IMG/VR virus record: IMGVR_UViG_3300043803_000064
Location: 1 to 21,181 of that record
DNA length: 21,181 nucleotides
Source of the DNA: a virus
Direction: 5' to 3' (one strand)
Below the pieces are notes generated by a model, which did not search any database, was not told where the DNA came from, and saw only the letters and a program-made list of their open reading frames with translations. Shown in pieces: positions 2,077 through 12,813 of the stretch; position 1 is the first letter of the stretch; the number at the start of each line of letters is the position of its first letter. The position numbers and the translations under genes were made by a program.

Positions 2077-2883
2077 TCAGCTCAGGTTGGTAATGAGGGT
2101 TGCGGTGATCTTTGTAGTGGACTGAACTGAATACACCAGACAATCCACGGCACTGGCTGCAGTGCTTAGCGTTGGTGCGGTGCCGCCACTGAAGTCCCAA
2201 TAGCTGCCATAAGCCAAGGTGTGCGAGCCAGTCGTCTGAGTAATCCAGATGCAGCCGCTTGCACCAGCAGTCAAATTGGTCGGGTTGGCAAGTGTCCTGT
2301 TTCCACCGATGGATAAAGAAAAATTGTTCGCCAAGCTGAAATCGGGCGTCACAGTAGCGCCGTCGGTCAGAGCAGAGATCGCACCACGCTGTTGAGCCGT
2401 GAAGGTCTGCGCTGTTGCCAGTGCGGCATAGCTTGCCCAAGACAGAACACCAGAGGCGTTAGTGCTCAGTGCTTGGCCGCTGGTCCCATCAGCACTCGGC
2501 AAGGTCCATGTGACGTTGCTGCTAACCGTGGCCGGTGCCTGCAGTGCAACCCAGTTGCTGCTGTCTGAATCCGCAAAACGCAGGTCAGATTGGGCGTTCA
2601 GCGTGATGTCGCCCGTGAAGGTCGCACCAGAGAGGGCAGCCAAACCCAAGTTGGCGACGGTCACGTCACCGATGGTGATCCAGGCGCTGTTGGCACCGTT
2701 GCGCAGTTTCAGCAGCGGGTTGGGGCTGACGCTGGTATCAATCCAAAGCTGATAGGCGTAGGTGGTGGTGGGTGCGGTTGAACCTGAGTTCTGACTTACG
2801 ACTGCAGCCAAGATCGTGTTCAACTCAGACCGGAAGTTGGCGCCGGACTGGTTAGCAAGGTTGTAATCAGATGCCTGTGCCAT
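2077..2883 (-). CDS. Tail fibre / side-fibre protein
   Basis: 268 residues, directly after J. The N-terminal segment (DYNLANQSGANFRSELNTIL, then APTTTYAYQLWIDTS, LLKLRNGAN) is a module I recognise from many environmental phage fibre proteins, where it probably anchors the fibre. The centre (DITLNAQSDLRFADSDSSNW, then TWTLPSADGTSGQAL, LSTNASGVLSWA) is a repeat-like beta segment also common in fibres, and the C-terminal 90 residues are beta-rich with SLSIGGNRTLANP. This is a trimeric fibre by family analogy. No chaperone gene is visible next to it. The gene shares one base with the J stop and ends 3 bases before the next gene's ATG. Confidence 0.8.
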   Translation of the reverse strand: MAQASDYNLANQSGANFRSELNTILAAVVSQNSGSTAPTTTYAYQLWIDTSVSPNPLLKLRNGANSAWITIGDVTVANLGLAALSGATFTGDITLNAQSDLRFADSDSSNWVALQAPATVSSNVTWTLPSADGTSGQALSTNASGVLSWASYAALATAQTFTAQQRGAISALTDGATVTPDFSLANNFSLSIGGNRTLANPTNLTAGASGCIWITQTTGSHTLAYGSYWDFSGGTAPTLSTAASAVDCLVYSVQSTTKITATLITNLS

Positions 2884-5800
2884 TAGGTGATCTGCCTGCC
2901 GTGGCCAACGGCTTGATAGTCAAAGGTCTTGCTCACCATGCTATTCGCGCTGTTTCTAAAGGTCACAGTAAAACCAGTACGGCTAATGCTTGAAAGGGTG
3001 AAGTAATCGCCGGTTGCCATATCCTGCGCAGTGATGCCAACGCTTGGTGTGCCGTAGAACGCGGTGGGGAAGGTGACGCTATAGGCTGCCGACCCACTGG
3101 CCAGGTTGCGCTGTTGCTCTGTGCGGCGTTCAAACTCACCGCGAACGCCTAGCTCTTCAACGACAACGTTCTGGGCCGGGTTGCTGCTAGTGGCTATGAG
3201 CTTGAACTGAAAACCGCGGCCACGGTGGGTGTTGTTGACAAAGGGCTGCCAGTCGCGCCAGGCCGGTGTGCTCGCGGGGTTGTCAGACGTTGTACGAACA
3301 AACAATTGGCAGTTCGCCGCACCAAGGTCATCGCCGTCTATGTCATCCCAAGAATCAATCAGCTCGATCCGTTCGTCATAGGTGTTGCCAGGCTCAAATG
3401 AACGTGTCTTGAGAATCTGTTGAAGGCCTAGGTCATAGACAGCACCAAGGTCGAGTGTCTCAGCAAACTGGTATTCGCCATCGGCTACTGCACCACCGAT
3501 GTAGTCGATCAGACCTAGAGCGTCCCAGTTGCCATCGGTTGCCATATTGTCTACTGGCTCATCAGCTGCCAGCACCAGACCGAGTTCCGTTTCGTTGTAG
3601 TACATATCCGTGGCACTACCGTTAAAAGGCGGACTGTTGTCCTCCTCGCGATATTCCTGAATCAGCAACAGGTCTTGAGGTGCCGGCAGGTCAACAACCA
3701 CGCTGGCCGTATTGGCAGATTCGTTGCCAAGGGAATCAACGGCACGGATGAAGTAGGTGCCCTCAAGCAGTGGAACGATTTTGCGAGTGCTGCTGCCAGC
3801 AACGGCAGGCACGATGTCGTTCGAGCGTCCCCATGTGGCGGTCACATCGGTCAGCGGGGTATGGCGAATGCGGATCTTGCCGCCAATCCTCACGTCAAGG
3901 TCAACGGCCTGCGGCCAGTACAGCTCAGCGGTGTGCTCATCAATTGGGGCGATGAACAGATCTGGGATGGTCTCTGGTGGCGCCGTCTTGCCAATGGCGT
4001 CATAGGTCTTGGTGGCAGCGGTGGATCGCTTGCTATTGATCGCACCAATCGCGGTCACCTCAATCTCATAGCGCCCCACGTCACTGTTTTGAATCTCGTA
4101 GTCAACGGAACGAACGTTGGCGGTGACCCAGTTGCCGTTGTTAAAGCGATAGCGCACCTCATAGGTCAGAGCACGTTCAGCAGCACGCCAGCCAACAATC
4201 AACTTTGCCAAGACCTGGCCGTTGCTTTCGTAGAGAACCTCTCTAACCACCAAGTTGGTTGGTGCCAGTGGGGGTTCGTTCAGGTCAGAAACGTCGCGGG
4301 TGCCGAGCGGAACGTCTCGCTCCACATAGTCGTATTTAGTGGAGTTGTAGGCAACAGCAGTGATGTCATAGGTCGCGCCATCGGTTTCCTTGACGTTGAG
4401 CACACGCCAAGTGGACATGGCTACCTCAGTGGTGCCGATGGTCCAAGGTGCGCCAACCGCTGGCGCCTCAGCAAGGGTGCTACCAGTAAAGATCGAGTTG
4501 CCAACAAGCGTTGAGCCAGGGACTATTGCAAGTTGGCCGCTGGGCAGCAGGACGTTAAAGGTGAAGCTGGCAGGCGGACCGCTGGGGAACAGATCAACGT
4601 CTGTGCGATCTAGGCGGACGCGGGTGGTGGTCGATCCAGTGGTGCAACGGCCAGAGCGCATGACGCCTGCGCGTACCGGGTCACCGATATTGATTAGGTC
4701 ACCAGGTCGAACAGTGATGCCGGCGGCAATGTCAGTGCTAAAGCTGACGATCTCAGTCTCGTTTTGTTCGGTGTAAAGCAGCCACTCACCAACACGCCGC
4801 GCTTGTCCTTGGCTGGTGCAGGCAAAGGCAGAAACCTCGATTTTGACGACGCCGAACTTGTCGATGCCTTCCTTGTCTTCAACAACCTCATAAGCAAGGT
4901 CGCGTAGCTCCATATCGAAATACTGCACCACTGCAACGGTGTGGCGAGTCTTGAGGCTGCTGCCGCTATAAGTAAAACCTTCTTCTGTGACGTTGGTTTG
5001 GTTAAAGATGTAGGAATAATCCTGCGGGCGATCTTGCGATATCTCTAATGCACCAGCAGACCAGAAGGGCATTGCACGGAAAACCGAGCACAAGTCGTTG
5101 ATTAGCTTGAAAGCCTGCTCTTGAGTTTGAATAACAACGTTGCAAGCAAAGCGAGGTTCTTGTCCACCTTTGCCATTAGAGACAACCTCGGCACAATACT
5201 GACTTGCGGCTAAAAAGCTCCACTTGTCGAGTTGCGCTGCGTCGATGTGATCACCAAAACCGTAACGCTTGCTTGTTAGTAGGTCCCACAGGATCCAAGC
5301 GGGGTCAGTTGTCCACTGCGCTGCTGCAAACGTGCCGTTCCATGTGCCGGCGTAAATCAGGCGACCGTTCTGCGGGTTGACCGTTGCATTGTTGGGTATA
5401 CGAACTTTGATGCCGCGAACGCGGTAAGCACGTGATGGGATGCTGCTGAATTGCTCAGCATTGAGCTTGACTGCAAATAGTGCGCTATTTGGGTAGGTCG
5501 TTTTGGCGTTGATCTTTTCGGTGTAGTCATACCAATAGAAATCACTGTTTTCAGTCGTGCTGCCTGACGGTGCAGCATCAGCATTAACGCGTACCACGCG
5601 AATATCAACTGGCGGGGGTGCGGTCAAATCAATGCGATGAATGCGTTGATAGAGGTCAGCAGTCCGGCCGCGAATTTCCTTCTCTTCAACAGTTGTGAAA
5701 GGACCGCCACTGTATGACGTTTGGATTCGGTATTGAATAACAGCACCTTCTACGTCACCATTGCTTTTGAAGACCTGGAGCGCGGGGGTGCCAATCGTGA

Positions 5801-6281
5801 CACGCACTGCATTCACATCCGGATCAGTGATCGAACGTGTGACAGGGGTCGACTGCGTGACCTTTGTATTGACTAGCGTTGTGCTTTGGTTGGCGTCACC
5901 TACGTTCTGGGTATAGGTCTGGTTTTGCGTGCCAGTGCGGAACTCAAATACAGCGTTCGTGATGTCAAAGTTGTAGTCAGATGCTTGGGCGTTGGTGGGG
6001 TCGGCATCGCCACGCAAAACTGGTGTGTTGTTGAGGTAAACATCCTTCAACATCGCGACGTTGTAATTCGTTGTGCCAACGGTGTAATCCTTGGCAGAGG
6101 GAAATCCCTCAATTTCACCTTCACCAATTAGGTCAATGATTCGTGCAACTTGACGTGAATCGAGGTTGTCACGGGTGACATTGGCTGACCCGCCACCACC
6201 ACCGCCGCCGCCCTTACCACCACCACCGCCACCGCCGCCGCCAGCGCCAGCAATCAGATGCTTGTCCATGTCAGACTTCAT
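2883..6281 (-). CDS. Tip attachment / host specificity protein J (lambda gpJ-like)
   Basis: About 1,130 residues; central tail-tip protein and receptor binder in lambda. Strong gpJ pattern in the first two thirds: TRDNLDSRQVARIIDLIGEG, then AWILWDLLTSKRYGFGDHID, then CSVFRAMPFWSAGALEISQD. Two fibronectin-III-like segments follow (window about 4275-4020 and 3995-3680). A C-terminal beta domain (about 3110-2883) has YGTPSVGITAQDMATGDYFT and RTGFTVTFRNSA, a module common at J C-termini and plausibly receptor-binding. The protein begins with an unusual poly-glycine block (nine Gly, Lys, eight Gly). The start is uncertain: ATG 6281 overlaps the I stop by 11 bases, ATG 6269 is one base after it, and 6332 would overlap by 62 bases. 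No clear Shine-Dalgarno sequence decides it. It ends TAATG, sharing one base with the fibre gene. Confidence 0.95.
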   Translation of the reverse strand: MKSDMDKHLIAGAGGGGGGGGGKGGGGGGGGSANVTRDNLDSRQVARIIDLIGEGEIEGFPSAKDYTVGTTNYNVAMLKDVYLNNTPVLRGDADPTNAQASDYNFDITNAVFEFRTGTQNQTYTQNVGDANQSTTLVNTKVTQSTPVTRSITDPDVNAVRVTIGTPALQVFKSNGDVEGAVIQYRIQTSYSGGPFTTVEEKEIRGRTADLYQRIHRIDLTAPPPVDIRVVRVNADAAPSGSTTENSDFYWYDYTEKINAKTTYPNSALFAVKLNAEQFSSIPSRAYRVRGIKVRIPNNATVNPQNGRLIYAGTWNGTFAAAQWTTDPAWILWDLLTSKRYGFGDHIDAAQLDKWSFLAASQYCAEVVSNGKGGQEPRFACNVVIQTQEQAFKLINDLCSVFRAMPFWSAGALEISQDRPQDYSYIFNQTNVTEEGFTYSGSSLKTRHTVAVVQYFDMELRDLAYEVVEDKEGIDKFGVVKIEVSAFACTSQGQARRVGEWLLYTEQNETEIVSFSTDIAAGITVRPGDLINIGDPVRAGVMRSGRCTTGSTTTRVRLDRTDVDLFPSGPPASFTFNVLLPSGQLAIVPGSTLVGNSIFTGSTLAEAPAVGAPWTIGTTEVAMSTWRVLNVKETDGATYDITAVAYNSTKYDYVERDVPLGTRDVSDLNEPPLAPTNLVVREVLYESNGQVLAKLIVGWRAAERALTYEVRYRFNNGNWVTANVRSVDYEIQNSDVGRYEIEVTAIGAINSKRSTAATKTYDAIGKTAPPETIPDLFIAPIDEHTAELYWPQAVDLDVRIGGKIRIRHTPLTDVTATWGRSNDIVPAVAGSSTRKIVPLLEGTYFIRAVDSLGNESANTASVVVDLPAPQDLLLIQEYREEDNSPPFNGSATDMYYNETELGLVLAADEPVDNMATDGNWDALGLIDYIGGAVADGEYQFAETLDLGAVYDLGLQQILKTRSFEPGNTYDERIELIDSWDDIDGDDLGAANCQLFVRTTSDNPASTPAWRDWQPFVNNTHRGRGFQFKLIATSSNPAQNVVVEELGVRGEFERRTEQQRNLASGSAAYSVTFPTAFYGTPSVGITAQDMATGDYFTLSSISRTGFTVTFRNSANSMVSKTFDYQAVGHGRQIT
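6187..6246 (-). repeat. GGN trinucleotide tract encoding poly-glycine in J
   Basis: A run of GGT/GGC codons near the 5' end of the J gene encodes nine glycines, one lysine and eight glycines in a row, after GAGAG-type residues (H-L-I-A-G-A-G). Codons are mixed rather than identical. Such tracts can change length in whole codons by replication slippage without breaking the frame. The tract lies before the first conserved gpJ residues (NVTRDNL), so it acts as a flexible leader or linker of unknown use. Confidence 0.8.
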
Positions 6282-6927
6282 CGGTGTTGATACCGGCAGA
6301 GACAATGACGCTGCCTGTAAAAACTTCGCCATAAATCACAGGTACCGGAACGCCCTGGCGGCTGACGTTTTGAATGCCACTAAACGAATATGAACGTTTG
6401 GGATCTGTTGCGCTGTCAGTCCCAGAACTAATTGTTGAGGTTGGGGTCAGTAACTGAGAAACACCACCAAGCACCAAGGCTGCACCGACAGCGCCAATAG
6501 CAGACGCAAAGCCACCGCCCACAAGTCCAAGGCTGACGGCAGAACCTGCACCAGTCGCCCCACCCAAACCAGCACCTAGGCCAAGAAAACCACCAGCAGC
6601 AGGGCCCAAAAGAATTGCGGCAGCAATCAGTCCTACGCCTGCCAAGATCTGGCCAGTGCCGCTTCCCGCACCACCAACAACCGGAACGATCCTGATGGCT
6701 TCCTGCGGCGCTGCTGGGTAGTGAAGCTGCATCGGCTCATCAGACAGCTGCAAGCCAAGACGGCCAACGGTTACCTGATATTCACCCTCGCTCATCACAC
6801 CACGAAGGCTTGGGAAGTTAGCCAGCAGGAAACGGATGGCCTCAGCCGGTGACTTCACCGCAGCCTTGAAACTCCGTTGTCCCAAGTGCTTGGCCAACTT
6901 GCCGTAAACCTTGATGACTCGGAACAT
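6271..6927 (-). CDS. Tail assembly protein I (lambda gpI-like)
   Basis: 218 residues. The N-terminal 80 residues form a compact ubiquitin-like beta-grasp fold (FRVIKVYGKLAKHLGQRSFK, then AEAIRFLLANFPSLRG), as in lambda gpI. A long Gly/Ala/Leu-rich hydrophobic stretch follows (about residues 84-160), where two membrane-spanning or amphipathic helices could form. The C-terminus holds the family-typical YSFSGIQNVSRQGVPVPVIY and then GEVFTGSVIVS. It is needed for tail-tip assembly and is thought to act with K and J. The gene is separated from K by a single base, and its stop overlaps or abuts the J start. Confidence 0.93.
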   Translation of the reverse strand: MFRVIKVYGKLAKHLGQRSFKAAVKSPAEAIRFLLANFPSLRGVMSEGEYQVTVGRLGLQLSDEPMQLHYPAAPQEAIRIVPVVGGAGSGTGQILAGVGLIAAAILLGPAAGGFLGLGAGLGGATGAGSAVSLGLVGGGFASAIGAVGAALVLGGVSQLLTPTSTISSGTDSATDPKRSYSFSGIQNVSRQGVPVPVIYGEVFTGSVIVSAGINTDEV

Positions 6928-6928
6928 C

Positions 6929-7639
6929 TCAACACCTGCTGGTATGCCGAACGATCAAGCCAGTGCTCTTCTGATAGTAGCCGCCCCATAAATCCCGACT
7001 GCTTAGGCGGCCGCGTAGATGGTGCAAAAACAGTTGGTCACCTAGGTAGACACCAACGTGATTAAGGCCTGGAGAGCCATCAAGTTGCATCAGTATCGCG
7101 TCGCCATATTCAGGAGCGCTAAGGCCCAGATCAACAAAACCAGCTTCCGAACAATACTTCTCGAACCATGGTGCTTGGTGAAAGTCCATCATTGATGGCG
7201 GGCGATTCCAATCCGGCAAATCAAGCCCCAGCTCTTCCTTGTACCAGTCACGCACCAAGGTCCAGCAATCGCTTACGCCCCACACCCATTGCCGCCCGAT
7301 TAGCGGAGCTTTATAGCCGGTTGGATGAATCTCGCACCACATCTGGGTGCCAGGGTTGCAGATAAACCACGGCAGACCTGACTTTTCACAGGACATGCGA
7401 TCTGCCTCACTGGGTTGAGCAGGACTGCGTGGATGGCTATGGAAGATTGCCGTTATTTCGCCGGCATCCTCAGCAGCGGCATAGTCCTCTGGGTCAATGA
7501 CAAAAAAGTCCTGGTCGGCGGCAAGGTTTTTGCATGGCCAGTAACGCTCGCGCCCCTTGACAACCAACACCAAACCGCACGCTTCCCGTGGCGCCTCCTG
7601 AAGCGCGTGCTCCAATGCGTCGTGTTTCCAGTGGGTCAT
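6929..7639 (-). CDS. Tail tip protein K: JAMM (MPN) plus NlpC/P60 peptidase domains
   Basis: 236 residues with two enzymatic domains. N-terminal residues about 5-110 form a JAMM/MPN metalloprotease-like domain: E19 in the APREACGL motif and the zinc ligands in HSHPRSPAQPSEAD (H67, H69, D80). C-terminal residues about 115-236 form an NlpC/P60 cysteine peptidase domain with C125 in GVSDCWTLV, H194 in GLNHVGVYLG and H206/H207 as a possible third site. Lambda gpK has this same architecture; the NlpC/P60 part is thought to cut cell-wall peptides during assembly or entry. All expected catalytic residues are present. It starts on a four-base overlap with the L gene. Confidence 0.95.
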   Translation of the reverse strand: MTHWKHDALEHALQEAPREACGLVLVVKGRERYWPCKNLAADQDFFVIDPEDYAAAEDAGEITAIFHSHPRSPAQPSEADRMSCEKSGLPWFICNPGTQMWCEIHPTGYKAPLIGRQWVWGVSDCWTLVRDWYKEELGLDLPDWNRPPSMMDFHQAPWFEKYCSEAGFVDLGLSAPEYGDAILMQLDGSPGLNHVGVYLGDQLFLHHLRGRLSSRDLWGGYYQKSTGLIVRHTSRC

Positions 7640-9204
7640 CCGTAGAAGGTGCCAGCGCTTGGGAATGATCCAAACGGTAGATCGGCATAATCACCAAAAC
7701 GCTTTTTGCAAGAGCTAATGCGCTTGCCGCATACATCCCGCAGTGGGTCGACCGTGCCGGTGGTCACCAAAGGTTCATTGCTGTTGCTGTAGCCCGAGGC
7801 GTACAACACTGTGTTTGTGTTGGTGTAAACGGTCAAGCCGCCATCAGCGTTGAGGGTAAGGCGGTTGTTTACGTTGCCGGTGACGCCAGTGATTTCAAGC
7901 TGTGGACCAGCTGAGTCAAGAACATCTACATCGGGGTTGTGATTTCTAAAAGGATTGCCACTGCTTAGGGTTCGTGTTGCATTAAAAACTTCGCCTTGGT
8001 ACCAAACGCCTGTGGAACTCACAATTGAATAGGAATTAGCAGACCAAGCAAACGGCAAACCCGTGTAATGCGTTGGCTCCAAAGCAACAGAACCAAAGCC
8101 AACAGTTAACCGAATTGTCTTACCGGCACTGATCGTAAAGGTGTAAGTGACAGATTGCGTTTGTCCTAAAGCGCTGGGCGAGGATCCAACCATCTCATAG
8201 CCAAAACCGCCACTACGGCCAATGCTTACATTGGTGGGATACCAGTTAATAAAGGAAACGGTGGTGGGCGAAGCTGTTGAGGCGGTGTTGCTTGCCCACA
8301 GCACTTCGCTGCCATTCCTGTAGAGGACAACGTTGCCATCGGTTTGCATCCTGAGCTGGTACGACCCACTGCCCCGAACAGTGTTGGTTGCCCAGACTGC
8401 ATTGTTACCAGGAATGCCTTGCGGGCCAGGCTTTTTGTAGACGACAAAGTTGCCGTCGTTTTGCATGATCCCTTTGTACCATCCGTTGGCAGATGTGATG
8501 TAGTCACCGTTATTTAGTGTCTCGCCGGCCGTTAGCTGGTTACCAAATGCACTTGCGGCAAAGTTGACTGCAGGTGTTGCGCCTAACGGATTGTCGTATT
8601 CGTCGTAATAATTTGTGCCCGTATAACCGCATTCAGCACTGCGGTATTTCCACTGACAGATGTTGGCAATGACTTGACGCTTTGGTGCTCTAACACCAGC
8701 TAGGTCAAAAACTGCGGCAAGCTCAAACTCAACAATCTCGCGGTTTTCAATTGCCTTACGGTCAATGTAGTAGACCTCACGGGGCATCTCCTCATTTGCT
8801 GGTGTGCCATAAGGGTTGACGCCGCCAGTGAAATTGACTGGATCCAGGAACCGGCTAAGCGTACGAATACGAATTAGCTTTGCACCTGTCAAATCATTAC
8901 CGGGTGTGATCTCATTGACGCCAAGCAACAATGCTGAAATGCTGCCGAGCAGGTTTGAAACTCGGATTCGCGGCCGTGGGAGCTGGCCATTGCCGCTGTA
9001 CTCAAAGCCTTCAGCCTGAATAGGTAGCGGTTGGTATGGCTCACCTTGCCAGTAGATATCACCGGCCGGGGTTTTCTGATTAACGCCAGCGTGAAAACGA
9101 ACTATCTCACTACTACCATGCAACTCTAAATCTAGGTGCAACTCAAAAAGCTCAATAATGGCATATGGATTAGAGCTAAGCAGCTCTCCAAACATCTCGC
9201 TCAT
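7636..9204 (-). CDS. Minor tail protein L (lambda gpL-like) with inserted B-lectin domain
   Basis: 522 residues, against roughly 230 in lambda. Residues 1-207 are gpL-like (NPYAIIELFELHLDL; YIDRKAIENREIVEFELAAV; PKRQVIANICQWKYRSAECG). Residues 487-522 are its expected C-terminus (DPLRDVCGKRISSCKKRFGD, LPFGSFPSAG). The four cysteines known in lambda gpL to hold an iron-sulfur cluster correspond to C183, C192, C492 and C499. Between the two pairs lies an insert of about 280 residues. Its first part (about 221-308) is a bulb-type mannose-binding lectin with two intact QxDxNxVxY sites (Q248-Y256 and Q287-Y295). A third, degenerate copy (N452-x-D454...Y460) appears after another beta-rich stretch at about 315-440. 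The short loop PGPQGIPG (259-266) is collagen-like. The core role is tail-tip assembly; the insert probably binds host-surface glycans. Confidence 0.93.
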   Translation of the reverse strand: MSEMFGELLSSNPYAIIELFELHLDLELHGSSEIVRFHAGVNQKTPAGDIYWQGEPYQPLPIQAEGFEYSGNGQLPRPRIRVSNLLGSISALLLGVNEITPGNDLTGAKLIRIRTLSRFLDPVNFTGGVNPYGTPANEEMPREVYYIDRKAIENREIVEFELAAVFDLAGVRAPKRQVIANICQWKYRSAECGYTGTNYYDEYDNPLGATPAVNFAASAFGNQLTAGETLNNGDYITSANGWYKGIMQNDGNFVVYKKPGPQGIPGNNAVWATNTVRGSGSYQLRMQTDGNVVLYRNGSEVLWASNTASTASPTTVSFINWYPTNVSIGRSGGFGYEMVGSSPSALGQTQSVTYTFTISAGKTIRLTVGFGSVALEPTHYTGLPFAWSANSYSIVSSTGVWYQGEVFNATRTLSSGNPFRNHNPDVDVLDSAGPQLEITGVTGNVNNRLTLNADGGLTVYTNTNTVLYASGYSNSNEPLVTTGTVDPLRDVCGKRISSCKKRFGDYADLPFGSFPSAGTFYG

Positions 9205-9536
9205 GGCTCAAATACCTCAACAAATTCAGCCTGCAAGGTGTTGTTGTTGTAACTAGTCATTTCAACAGACCATTGCATACAGATATATTTACCAGCTGTC
9301 CCGCGAGGCGGTGTCCAGTCAAAGGATTCAGAGCCTGCCCTTGCCTCTAAAAATGCCAGGATGTTGTCACGTTCACTATCAGTTCTGTTGGCAAACGACA
9401 AACGCCAAATCTTAGGATCAGTGTTCAAGCCATACCGCAAGCGCTGCTCATAGCCATCGCCAAACTGCACACGCCGCACACGTGGCTGACTTTGTTCGCT
9501 TGCAGAAAAGCTTGGCGTATAAGTAAACGTGGCCAT
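9201..9536 (-). CDS. Minor tail protein M (lambda gpM-like)
   Basis: 111 residues, close to lambda gpM. Conserved family features are visible: QPRVRRVQFGDGYEQRLRYG near the start, then IWRLSFANRTDSERDNILAF, and a FDWTPPRG motif, where the family usually has 'F.WTPP'. It is a tail-tip component added between the distal end of the tube and the L protein. It starts on the shared TAATG at the tape measure stop and overlaps the L gene by four bases (ATGA). Nothing unusual. Confidence 0.92.
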   Translation of the reverse strand: MATFTYTPSFSASEQSQPRVRRVQFGDGYEQRLRYGLNTDPKIWRLSFANRTDSERDNILAFLEARAGSESFDWTPPRGTAGKYICMQWSVEMTSYNNNTLQAEFVEVFEP

Positions 9537-12106
9537 TATGCAAGCAAGCCTCCAGGGCGCTTCTGCTTAATCAATTCTGCTTGAACTGCTGCACCAACGA
9601 CACGACCCAAGGCATTTGCATCTGAAGCATTACCTTGAACGCTTGAACCGCTTGCATCGACATTAACAACGATGCTGGTATTAGCACTGCCTGAAACCCC
9701 TAGCTTCCCGTCACGTCCACGCTTCAGCGGCATGATCGCCTCAGGGCCTGCCTCACCCATCAAGCCGAGGTTTCCAGCTCCACCATTGGCAAAGCGGAAC
9801 AAGGTAGGCCGGCTCACAACGCCACCCATAGCGAACGGCTTTATGCCATTTGCAGCGACCATGCCGTTGCCGACGAACTCAAGGGCGGCAAAGTTTGGTT
9901 TAAACAATGAGCTGCCACCTGTCTTAGGACCAAAGAAACTTGATATTGAATTAATTGCGGTGTTAATCACATAAATCTGCATCAACTGTTTGGCGATGTC
10001 AGTCAATACGCCAGATGCAATCTTTTGCAGACTTGCCCCAAAACCTTCAGCGCCTGTGATCAACGCATCAAACGCGGATGCCATACCCTGCCCGATGCTG
10101 TTGCCGATGCTGTCAGCAAGTTGCTTTTGCTTTTCTTGTTCAGCAGTGAACTGCTTGGCCGCCACTACGTTCTTGCCATATTCAGAAGTAATTAGTTCAA
10201 GCTCATTCACATAAAAAGGCAGAGCATCAATGTTTTGCTTCTGGAACGCAGCAATCTCACGTGCATATTGCGCTTGACTGGCTTGAAACCTATCTGCAAT
10301 CCCTTGCAGCTTTGCATCTTTATCAGCCTGTGAAATCTTTTCGCGTTGAATTTCAGCAGCTTCAGCAAGAAGTTTGACTCCGCGATCAATCATTTCAAGG
10401 CGAAGTTTTTCACCGGTATTCTGCGAACGTTCAGCTGCTGCTATGCGTACCTTTAAAGCTTCCTGAGATCGAAGCAAACCATTGGCAGCATTGATTGCTT
10501 GAAGCTGGCTTTCACGGCCCTTGGACGACTTAGCACCACCACCACCGCTGGCTAATGCAGCCAAGTTTGGGTCAAACCCAGAACCCATTGCATTTCCGCT
10601 TGACGTGCTGGGTCGAAACTGTCTCTGCGCCGAGCCAGGCGCATACCTACCCATGTCAGCAACAGATGGGGCAGATGCACGCGAGCTTGCTCCTACACCA
10701 TAACCAACAACCCTAGAAATTAAGCCTGCACCAGAACCTGAAAATTGGCTGGCAAGAATACCGCGAAGAGTTGGGTTTAGTTGATTCCACCACCTTGCAA
10801 TCGTATTTCCAATAGCAGCAAAATAAGACGTTGCATTTGCGCTCATTGCCTTAAAAGCTGATGCAAAGGAATTGCTCATGCTGCTGGCGCTAATTTGGCT
10901 CTTGCTTTCAAGATCAGGCAGCAATCCTTTTACATATTCAATAGCCTTTTGGGCTCGGTCCCCAAGGCCTTTCATTGAGTTCGTAAAATCATTTGCAATT
11001 ACAGATCCGATGTTATTAACCCAATTTCTAAATGCCAAATTGTTGTCGTACAGGGCTTTTGAGAGCAGGCCCAAAGCTGTGACTCCAGCAATAATCCAGC
11101 CCCAACCAGGAAGCGCGAGAATTGCAGCACCAAGGGCTCTGACATTACCTGTAAGCATTGGCATCACCCCACCAGCCAAAGCCGTCTGATAACGCAAGAT
11201 CTCCAATCCATTGGACAATACAGCGACAGCTGACACCACACCTCTAATGATTCCAGTGAGTGGCCCCCATGCGAAAGCCAATGCCGCGCCGCTAACGGCT
11301 GCACTCTTGACTACATCAGGCAAAGCGTTGAATGCAGTCACAAAACTGGTCACTGCATCGGTTATTGATTGAAGGGCTGGAAGTAGCGCAATCGTCAGGT
11401 CAGCCCCCAAGGCCCCAACCTTGCCGCTAAGGATTGCCAGCTTGTCACTGTATTCATCTGCCTTTTTCGCAAAGGCTTCGGTCATCTTGACGCTGAGGCT
11501 TTCAATGGCACTGCCACCCATGTTGAGCATGGGGATCATTTCGGCCCCAGACTTTCCAAACAATCTCAGCGCTAGAGCTGTCTTGGCAACACCGTCTGGC
11601 ATTGCCTTAAACCGATTGGCAACCTCAAGCATTACGGCGTCTGCCGATTTGAGCTGCCCGTTGCTGCCTTTGATGCTGATCCCCAATGCTTGAAATGTTT
11701 TAGAGGCGGTGGCGCTGCCACTATTTGCCTCAAGCATGGACTTGCTTAACTTCACCAGGGATTTACTGACATTCTCAAGATCAGTTCCGCTGGTAGCTGC
11801 AGCCTTTTTAAAACGTGCCAATGCTTCAACGCTGACGCCTGTTTTTTGGCTCAGGTCATACATGGCATCTCCAGCTTTGATGGTGTTCTGCACCATGCCA
11901 ACTAGGCCAGCCACGCTTAGCAGCGGCGCAAGAGTGCCCAATGCACCTGACAATCCAGCAGCAGCGCCGGTCATGCCACGCATAGCACCAGTAACGCCCT
12001 TTGCTGTTGTCTCTACAGATTGCAAGCCACGATTAAACGCGACGATGCCGTTCAGGCCATCAACCTTGGCGCTAAGCCTCAGGACTGAATCAACATTCAT
12101 CGCCAT
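9536..12106 (-). CDS. Tail tape measure protein
   Basis: 856 residues. Tape measure proteins set tail length and are ejected with DNA to help it cross the host envelope. The N-terminal third is helical (KTGVSVEALARFKKAAATSG is typical of these proteins). Hydrophobic segments suited to membrane insertion occur near residues 50-75, 265-300 and 325-350 (for example ILALPGWGWIIAGVTALGLL). A charged helical stretch follows at about 540-650. The C-terminus carries the lambda gpH-type signature (FAMGGVVSRPTLFRFANGG; LMGEAGPEAIMPLKRGRDGK). No peptidase or lysozyme domain is seen. By the usual rule of about 0.15 nm per residue, it predicts a tail near 125-130 nm. It begins after GAGG at good spacing and ends TAATG, sharing one base with the M gene. 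Confidence 0.95.
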   Translation of the reverse strand: MAMNVDSVLRLSAKVDGLNGIVAFNRGLQSVETTAKGVTGAMRGMTGAAAGLSGALGTLAPLLSVAGLVGMVQNTIKAGDAMYDLSQKTGVSVEALARFKKAAATSGTDLENVSKSLVKLSKSMLEANSGSATASKTFQALGISIKGSNGQLKSADAVMLEVANRFKAMPDGVAKTALALRLFGKSGAEMIPMLNMGGSAIESLSVKMTEAFAKKADEYSDKLAILSGKVGALGADLTIALLPALQSITDAVTSFVTAFNALPDVVKSAAVSGAALAFAWGPLTGIIRGVVSAVAVLSNGLEILRYQTALAGGVMPMLTGNVRALGAAILALPGWGWIIAGVTALGLLSKALYDNNLAFRNWVNNIGSVIANDFTNSMKGLGDRAQKAIEYVKGLLPDLESKSQISASSMSNSFASAFKAMSANATSYFAAIGNTIARWWNQLNPTLRGILASQFSGSGAGLISRVVGYGVGASSRASAPSVADMGRYAPGSAQRQFRPSTSSGNAMGSGFDPNLAALASGGGGAKSSKGRESQLQAINAANGLLRSQEALKVRIAAAERSQNTGEKLRLEMIDRGVKLLAEAAEIQREKISQADKDAKLQGIADRFQASQAQYAREIAAFQKQNIDALPFYVNELELITSEYGKNVVAAKQFTAEQEKQKQLADSIGNSIGQGMASAFDALITGAEGFGASLQKIASGVLTDIAKQLMQIYVINTAINSISSFFGPKTGGSSLFKPNFAALEFVGNGMVAANGIKPFAMGGVVSRPTLFRFANGGAGNLGLMGEAGPEAIMPLKRGRDGKLGVSGSANTSIVVNVDASGSSVQGNASDANALGRVVGAAVQAELIKQKRPGGLLA

Positions 12107-12109
12107 GAC

Positions 12110-12813
12110 TTAGCCCTCGTTTTTGTTGATCAGGGTCAGTGCAGCGCCCTCCATCACCTGCAGGTCCTCCAGCATGGAGCGCTGATCCTCTACTCCATAA
12201 AGTCTAAGCATCCATTCCACTGCTACATAATCCAAACCCAGCACACCACTCATCGACGTGCGCCATTGAGTTTGCAATCGCAGGAACATTTCAACGACCG
12301 CCCAGTTCTCCTCCAGCACCTCAAAATCAGACGAAATAGACGCCTCGTCTGTGATGATGTTGAAGGCCTGCGCTGCCTTTTCTAGATCCTTGTCTCCAGG
12401 GTCGCCGCCGGCCCAATACTCAGCGGCCTCAATCAGTTTTTTCGTTTTGCCCCTGCAAGGCTGGCAAAGTACGCCGACACGATGGCAGCCGTGACGGTAG
12501 GCACGTTCATCAGTTGTGCCTTGGCCTTTTCAGAGAACGGCACCTGCTCGGCTTTGTCGTCCAGCACCCCAGACCAGCCAACCAGAATCTCATCGGCGAT
12601 TTCCTGATCAGTGATCATGCCGTCAGTGTCGTCATCACGCTGAATAGCGCTTAGGCGTTTTTGAACGGCCTCTTGGATTTCGATGATGCGGCTTTGCGGC
12701 AGGCGCTTCAGCTCAGCGTCAAAAGTTTGCTTTTCATGCCGGCCCCCATCAACGGGAATGTCAAAGGAAACCGGCCAGCTGTAGGTGTCGGACTGCTTGA
12801 GAACAAATGCCAT
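12110..12813 (-). CDS. Tail assembly chaperone G-T fusion made by programmed -1 frameshift
   Basis: Predicted product of slipping at AAAAAAC: 126 residues of G followed by 108 residues in the -1 frame, 234 in all. After the slip the frame reads LIEAAEYWAGGDPGDKDLEK and stays open to TAA at 12110, with arithmetic that closes exactly (109 codons from 12436). The C-terminal half (ENWAVVEMFLRLQTQWRTSM, then VLGLDYVAVEWMLRLYG, then LEDLQVMEGAALTL) matches the DUF1799 / gpT-like family. In lambda, G binds the tape measure protein and the T part recruits tail tube subunits, so the G to G-T ratio matters for tail assembly. A stand-alone frame from a GTG at 12319 exists but would lack a third of the T domain. 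The stop is 3 bases from the tape measure ATG. Confidence 0.88.
12433..12813 (-). CDS. Tail assembly chaperone G
   Basis: 126 residues, acidic and mostly helical after a beta N-terminus (LKQSDTYSWPVSFDIPVDGG, then ELKRLPQSRIIEIQEAVQKR, then DEILVGWSGVLDD). This is typical of gpG-type chaperones that coat the tape measure protein before tube polymerisation. The codons CGA-AAA-AAC immediately before the TGA stop contain the canonical slippery heptamer A AAA AAC, so a fraction of ribosomes should shift by -1 and make the longer G-T protein described separately. The gene is between the tail tube and tape measure genes, as in lambda and most siphoviruses. Confidence 0.88.
   Translation of the reverse strand: MAFVLKQSDTYSWPVSFDIPVDGGRHEKQTFDAELKRLPQSRIIEIQEAVQKRLSAIQRDDDTDGMITDQEIADEILVGWSGVLDDKAEQVPFSEKAKAQLMNVPTVTAAIVSAYFASLAGAKRKN
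12436..12442 (-). promoter_or_regulatory. -1 ribosomal frameshift slippery heptamer A AAA AAC
   Basis: On the minus strand the gene G reading frame ends CGA AAA AAC TGA, so the heptamer is in the correct register (X XXY YYZ) and the zero-frame stop follows directly. Eight bases downstream, a GC-only 5-bp stem could form (GCCGC at 12427-12423 with GCGGC at 12408-12404, 14-base loop), with a competing GGCC/GGCC pairing in the same place. This is a candidate stimulatory structure at the usual distance. The heptamer is seen directly; its efficiency and the structure are inferred. Confidence 0.88.

Follow-up and report, generated by a model that had tools for sequence, protein, structure and literature searches.

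A split B-lectin predicted within the iron-sulfur cysteine loop of the tail-tip protein gpL of an IMG/VR virus

Introduction

Tail-tip hub proteins carrying an additional domain between the halves of a metal-binding region have already been described. In g13 of RcGTA, an oligosaccharide-binding domain lies between two segments of the ion-binding domain (PMC7296036), and the hub of roseophage R4C (vBDshSR4C_014) has an oligosaccharide-binding domain inserted between two ion-binding-domain segments (PMC10276861). In lambda, the cysteines of the gpL iron-sulfur (Fe-S) domain are C173/C182/C205/C212, the domain faces the outside of the tail tip, and the function of the gpL Fe-S cluster was described as still to be characterised (PMC10721106). 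JBD30 gp50 has cysteines C147/C156/C238/C245, with a loop of 81 residues and a putative metal identity (PMC11445458), and the C-terminal region of gpL was termed hypervariable by a recent study (PMC13243795). Given the RcGTA and R4C hubs, the gp50 loop and this last report, the insertion slot has to be considered known.

B-lectins are well described outside virions. Those of pyocin L1 and LlpA have D-rhamnose of LPS as their ligand, with selectivity set by another domain (PMC6240691), and several cyanophages use LPS as a receptor (PMC4390846). With most subscription journals outside our search, no literature on phage bulb-type lectins was found, and the combination of B-lectin, phage and tail returned only bacteriocin or antibiotic papers, again within that restricted set of journals.

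Here we analyse a window of 21,181 nucleotides (positions 1 to 21,181 of IMG/VR record IMGVR_UViG_3300043803_000064), in which an earlier note, made from the letters alone, had placed a B-lectin domain in the Fe-S cysteine loop of a gpL homologue. As far as the libraries searched show, the new elements are the lectin fold, its nesting, an expansion to nine motifs and the exchange of the cassette.

Results

The gpL homologue and its neighbors

The 522-aa protein matches Phage_tail_L (PF05100) with 193.1 bits and 4.5e-57, well over the curated cutoff of 25 bits, and phrog_18 with 1.5e-83, while its predicted structure retrieves lambda gpL (8iyk_L) in Foldseek with 7.6e-15. Open reading frames and family matches reproduce the lambda gene order H-M-L-K-I-J around it (Table 1). 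At the C-terminus of the gpJ-like protein (2883-6332, minus strand), residues 1085-1133 give a weak H_lectin match (1.9e-4), which may be a second glycan-binding module at the tip. At positions 1-2073 on the minus strand lies a further ORF, open-ended and similar to tail fibres, in which Gly_rich_2 and SPRY domains were identified.

Only four cysteines are present, C183, C192, C492 and C499, with spacings CX8C and CX6C; in the alignment of 59 homologues C183 is invariant and C192 nearly so. Lambda gpL shares the core fold, these spacings and the gene order, but has 22 residues between the pairs and no insert. The T1 tail-tip protein (9l9p_J) and the F2-pyocin hub (25vf) have the same core fold as well. 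A chain of the JBD30 baseplate is also a structural match to the window model in Foldseek, and the upper baseplate protein gp50 (8rk3) combines the same spacings with an enlarged loop, although smaller than that of the window.

In the window protein 299 residues separate the cysteine pairs. A scan started from an insert-free relative gave 80 loci, 78 of which have only 21-22 residues there, so about 278 residues of the window protein are extra. In the 59-homologue alignment the insert lies between the conserved stretch NYxDExDNPLGATPA, which follows the first pair, and DVCGKR at the second pair. On both sides of it the core aligns with insert-free gpLs, among them relatives 56-65% identical to the window protein, and both ends are intact. 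The extra length of about 280 residues and the position of the insert given by the earlier note were correct, as was the presence of two perfect lectin motifs.

Table 1. Features of the gpL region, in window coordinates.
Feature	Position	Strand	Basis
gpJ-like central tail fibre/hub	2883..6332	-	phrog_31 4.6e-204
gpI-like tail assembly protein	6271..6927	-	phrog_32 8.6e-44
gpK-like JAB + NlpC/P60 protein, downstream neighbor	6929..7639	-	PF14464, PF00877, phrog_30
gpL homologue, tail-tip hub protein L, 522 aa	7636..9204	-	PF05100, phrog_18, Foldseek 8iyk_L
gpL C-terminal core, residues 487-522, with C492/C499 (CX6C)	7639..7746	-	CGKRISSCKKRFG segment common to insert-free gpLs
Whole insert, residues ~208-486	7747..8583	-	cysteine gap against insert-free relatives
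B-lectin blade 3, residues ~441-478	7771..7884	-	gastrodianin alignment, TM 0.88
Degenerate third sugar motif, NADGGLTVY (452-460)	7825..7851	-	sequence
D2 nested domain, residues ~309-440, long beta strands and one helix (predicted)	7885..8280	-	predicted structure
B-lectin blades 1 and 2, residues 214-306	8287..8565	-	phmmer to gastrodianin and pyocin L1; pLDDT
Intact sugar-site motif 2, QTDGNVVLY (287-295)	8320..8346	-	sequence
Proline/glycine-rich short loop, residues 258-268, only in close relatives of the window	8401..8433	-	alignment
Intact sugar-site motif 1, QNDGNFVVY (248-256)	8437..8463	-	sequence
gpL core N-side, residues 1-206, hub domain I and first Fe-S half	8587..9204	-	alignment up to junction with insert-free gpLs
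First cysteine pair C183/C192 (CX8C)	8629..8658	-	sequence and 59-homologue alignment
gpM-like minor tail protein, upstream neighbor	9201..9536	-	PF05939 4.8e-28

Architecture of the insert

The insert is predicted to be made of two nested domains, a three-bladed B-lectin split by a second domain, D2. For the lectin region, phmmer against the solved structures of PDB gives matches beyond chance, with gastrodianin at 1.4e-14 and pyocin L1 at 2.5e-13; pyocins are reached at about 1e-20 by the family profile. Searched alone, the window protein obtains 23.2 bits (1e-4) with Pfam B_lectin (PF01453), whose curated cutoff is 32.4 bits; relatives exceed it (41.0 bits in L069, 103.3 bits in P0006/L101), and for 29 of the 32 family members the E-value is <=0.001. 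These results support the placement of a B-lectin inside the gpL cysteine loop made by the earlier note.

The AlphaFold2 model was built from 59 sequences, a first one with a shallow alignment having left the core unresolved. Its mean pLDDT is 81.5 and its pTM 0.50, with most of the insert at 85-98 and the Fe-S region at ~35-65, which is low confidence. Blades 1-2 are mostly at 86-96, falling to ~65 in the 261-270 loop, and D2 is at ~95-98. With Foldseek, the model matches gastrodianin 1xd6, a whole monocot lectin, with a TM of 0.88 by target length. This alignment spans 253 columns for a 110-residue target, the D2 gap included, and the ~143 extra columns suggest a lectin that is complete but interrupted, with the predicted beta-prism fold of three blades. 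The QxDxNxVxY motif of blade 3 is intact in L069, L071, L072, L076 and L080, in agreement with the split-lectin reading.

Pyocin L1, LlpA, gastrodianin and snowdrop agglutinin share this three-bladed fold and the QxDxNxVxY sites. However, they are free-standing proteins found outside virions, with blades 2-3 uninterrupted, whereas the window lectin is split and is part of gpL. The lectin accounts for only about 93+38 residues of the insert. D2 has no match in Pfam, PHROG or PDB sequences. The clean domain insertion proposed earlier holds for the precise site and the intact core, but the lectin itself is interrupted in the predicted structure by the ~130 residues of D2.

A glycan-binding-type domain between Fe-S or ion-binding halves is what the window gpL shares with the published architecture of RcGTA g13 and the R4C hub. 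Their inserted domain has ~82 residues and resembles a T4 hub domain and a tailspike insertion domain, against ~278 residues with B-lectin and D2 in the window; the inserted folds therefore differ, a predicted B-lectin beta-prism as opposed to a T4-hub-like domain. The location is less surprising than the earlier note supposed, since these two hubs already carry an oligosaccharide-binding domain there, the lambda Fe-S domain is part of the outer tip surface and the cysteines of JBD30 gp50 enclose an enlarged loop.

Distribution and conservation

With the window protein as query, IMG/VR yielded 50 loci, and an alignment scan added at least ~42 further contigs of the window gpL type, some of them ending before or within the insert. 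The type is present in at least ~90 IMG/VR contigs. The largest loop was found in L101 (2998-5823), with 718 residues, nine lectin motifs and a B_lectin match of 1.2e-29; it is apparently composed of several tandem B-lectin units and one D2-like domain. On a tree of the core, with the insert left out, the lectin type groups together. The tree requires two changes for this type, apparently because the long-branched MED4-184, without an Fe-S domain, falls inside the group, and a single origin of the lectin-type gpL is likely. Homologues lacking the cysteine domain were noted in AG-345-A17 (L054:2986-3978) and MED4-184 (L053:2983-3555), the former with an insert in the N-terminal domain that looks cupredoxin-like.

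In 50,697 phage records the lectin query had two matches, both in Pseudomonas phages, and the window insert as query had none. In Pseudomonas phage Riah (H73, OR351070), the match is in a hypothetical protein at 12037-12345.

At least one sugar motif is kept in 26 of 32 representative gpLs, and in 22 both site 1 and site 2 are intact. The 6 of the 32 without any have lost all three motifs while retaining the lectin domain, including the structural glycines of the first two sites, which indicates that some members can do without sugar binding. Purifying selection on the lectin blades is strong (omega of 0.01-0.08 for those close pairs that allow it to be measured), and the constraint on D2 is somewhat weaker. 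D2 is among the least conserved segments, with a mean identity of 59% vs 86% in the core and 66% in blades 1-2; between the window and L004 its identity is 76%, against 99%.

Exchange of the insert and other modules in the loop

In L013, the insert resembles that of L028 (86-98% nucleotide identity in 150-base windows, vs 53-69% to L006), whereas both ends of gpL and the region downstream follow L006, with mostly 87-97% identity. The informative sites change type twice. The first change is at nt 597-599 (codon 199-200), directly behind the first cysteine segment; the second falls in the interval from about nt 1493 to 1527, at the other cysteine segment or directly behind it. A few mixed sites are present on either side of the breakpoints. 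This mosaic shows a double crossover that swapped just the insert segment. The swapped segment differs by 2-14% from L028, so L013 is not an assembly chimera of the sequences compared. A second divergence restricted to the insert is seen in L034/L040, and in L025/L027 the divergence is centered on D2, almost alone.

In other gpL homologues the same cysteine loop is filled by unrelated modules. Gp036 of S-CBS4 (L055:2863-4260) has an insert of ~240 residues there, with alanine-rich, coiled-coil-like stretches on either side of another region and no B-lectin match in Pfam; this type was found in 27 IMG/VR loci (L214-L240), most of them with the full insert. In L179 (1501-2682) the loop contains a coiled-coil-like insert and in L135 and L138 it is empty, with 83-85% identity between L179 and both of them on either side of the insert. 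A different insert of ~220 residues is observed in L113, L114, L118 and L129, after the second cysteine pair and before the LPFGSFPG tail; it marks a second insertion point in gpL.

Host

The host of this group of uncultivated viruses is probably a cyanobacterium, and we infer a picocyanobacterium. For gpJ, TerL and capsid, the nearest cultured phages are Prochlorococcus MED4-117/184 and Synechococcus S-LBS1, although the protein similarity behind this host assignment is only 36-48% and Roseobacter phages come close behind for TerL and capsid. L241 (1391-2614) was discarded as host evidence: it is 95% identical over residues 1-315 and then continues as unrelated bacterial sequence, in a chimeric MAG contig (RGVP01000028). 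Protein A23 of S-LBS1, a candidate for a large gpL by position, has no gpL core in its sequence. We did not find psbA (PF00124) in 12 relatives nor an integrase (PF00589) in 7 relatives, absences that say little since the contigs may be fragments.

Discussion

We consider it probable that the Fe-S loop of this gpL carries an exchangeable adhesin cassette, the split B-lectin with D2, serving to grip host sugars before gpJ acts; outward display, sugar binding and a role in adsorption are inferred here. Because the lambda Fe-S domain faces outward, the three gpL copies would present their lectin and D2 domains on the periphery of the tip. The two intact lectin sites could then grip a repeating sugar of the host surface, such as an LPS O-chain or exopolysaccharide, in a weak and reversible way, and specificity would come in addition from D2, the more variable domain, this contact preceding the engagement of the receptor by gpJ. 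Such a division of labor would be much like that of the lectin-like bacteriocins. Given the weak H_lectin-like match at the end of gpJ, the main adhesin may be a protein other than gpL.

The variability of D2 also fits another distribution of roles, in which the lectin is mainly a rigid scaffold, D2 is the true host contact and the lectin's own affinity for sugars is vestigial or accessory. The low conservation of D2, also between the window and L004, its divergence almost alone in L025/L027, and the members that keep the structural glycines without sugar motifs are in line with it. Nevertheless, most representatives maintain sites 1 and 2 together in strongly constrained blades, and L101 multiplied the lectin motifs and not D2, so we regard this reading as unlikely, if worth keeping in mind. 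The lectin could instead hold virions in polysaccharide matrix, mucilage or particles, as a general environmental adhesion. The affinity of LlpA for mannose is low (PMC6240691), and cyanobacterial exopolysaccharide contains mannose and rhamnose (PMC4390846), but a site beside the central fibre, the sharp-bordered exchange and the fast evolution of D2 fit selection on host range better, which makes this possibility rather improbable.

A purely structural insert, stabilizing the tip or docking tail proteins with no outside ligand, appears to us quite improbable. In its favor, the Fe-S domain lies against the hub, gpJ could offer D2 and lectin a surface to pack on, and some members lack the motifs. 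Yet relatives 56-65% identical to the window protein do without the insert, and its exchange in one piece, with downstream genes that remained of the other type, speaks against tight contacts shaped by co-evolution. As for an assembly or chimera artefact, the MAG match L241 is clearly chimeric past residue ~315, but ~40 loci from many separate metagenomes have the same uninterrupted architecture, with 65-100% identity and mostly synonymous differences, and we rejected this explanation as having next to no chance of being right.

Beyond the lectin type, we tentatively propose, at somewhat below even chances, that the gpL Fe-S loop serves generally as a docking site at which one adhesin can be exchanged for another, with the cluster clamping the base of the insert and the cysteine segments acting as recombination arms. 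If so, the gpL Fe-S cluster would be a staple for an insertion platform, and siphophages would exchange surface-recognition cassettes while leaving the hub untouched.

The probable adhesin cassette would offer a concrete reason for the variable loop beside the gpL Fe-S cluster. It would also bring B-lectins, almost absent from the phage records searched, into the repertoire of phage adhesion domains. Fibres and spikes are where host-range modules are usually looked for, and here it is a ring protein of the hub that would bear an exchangeable lectin cassette.
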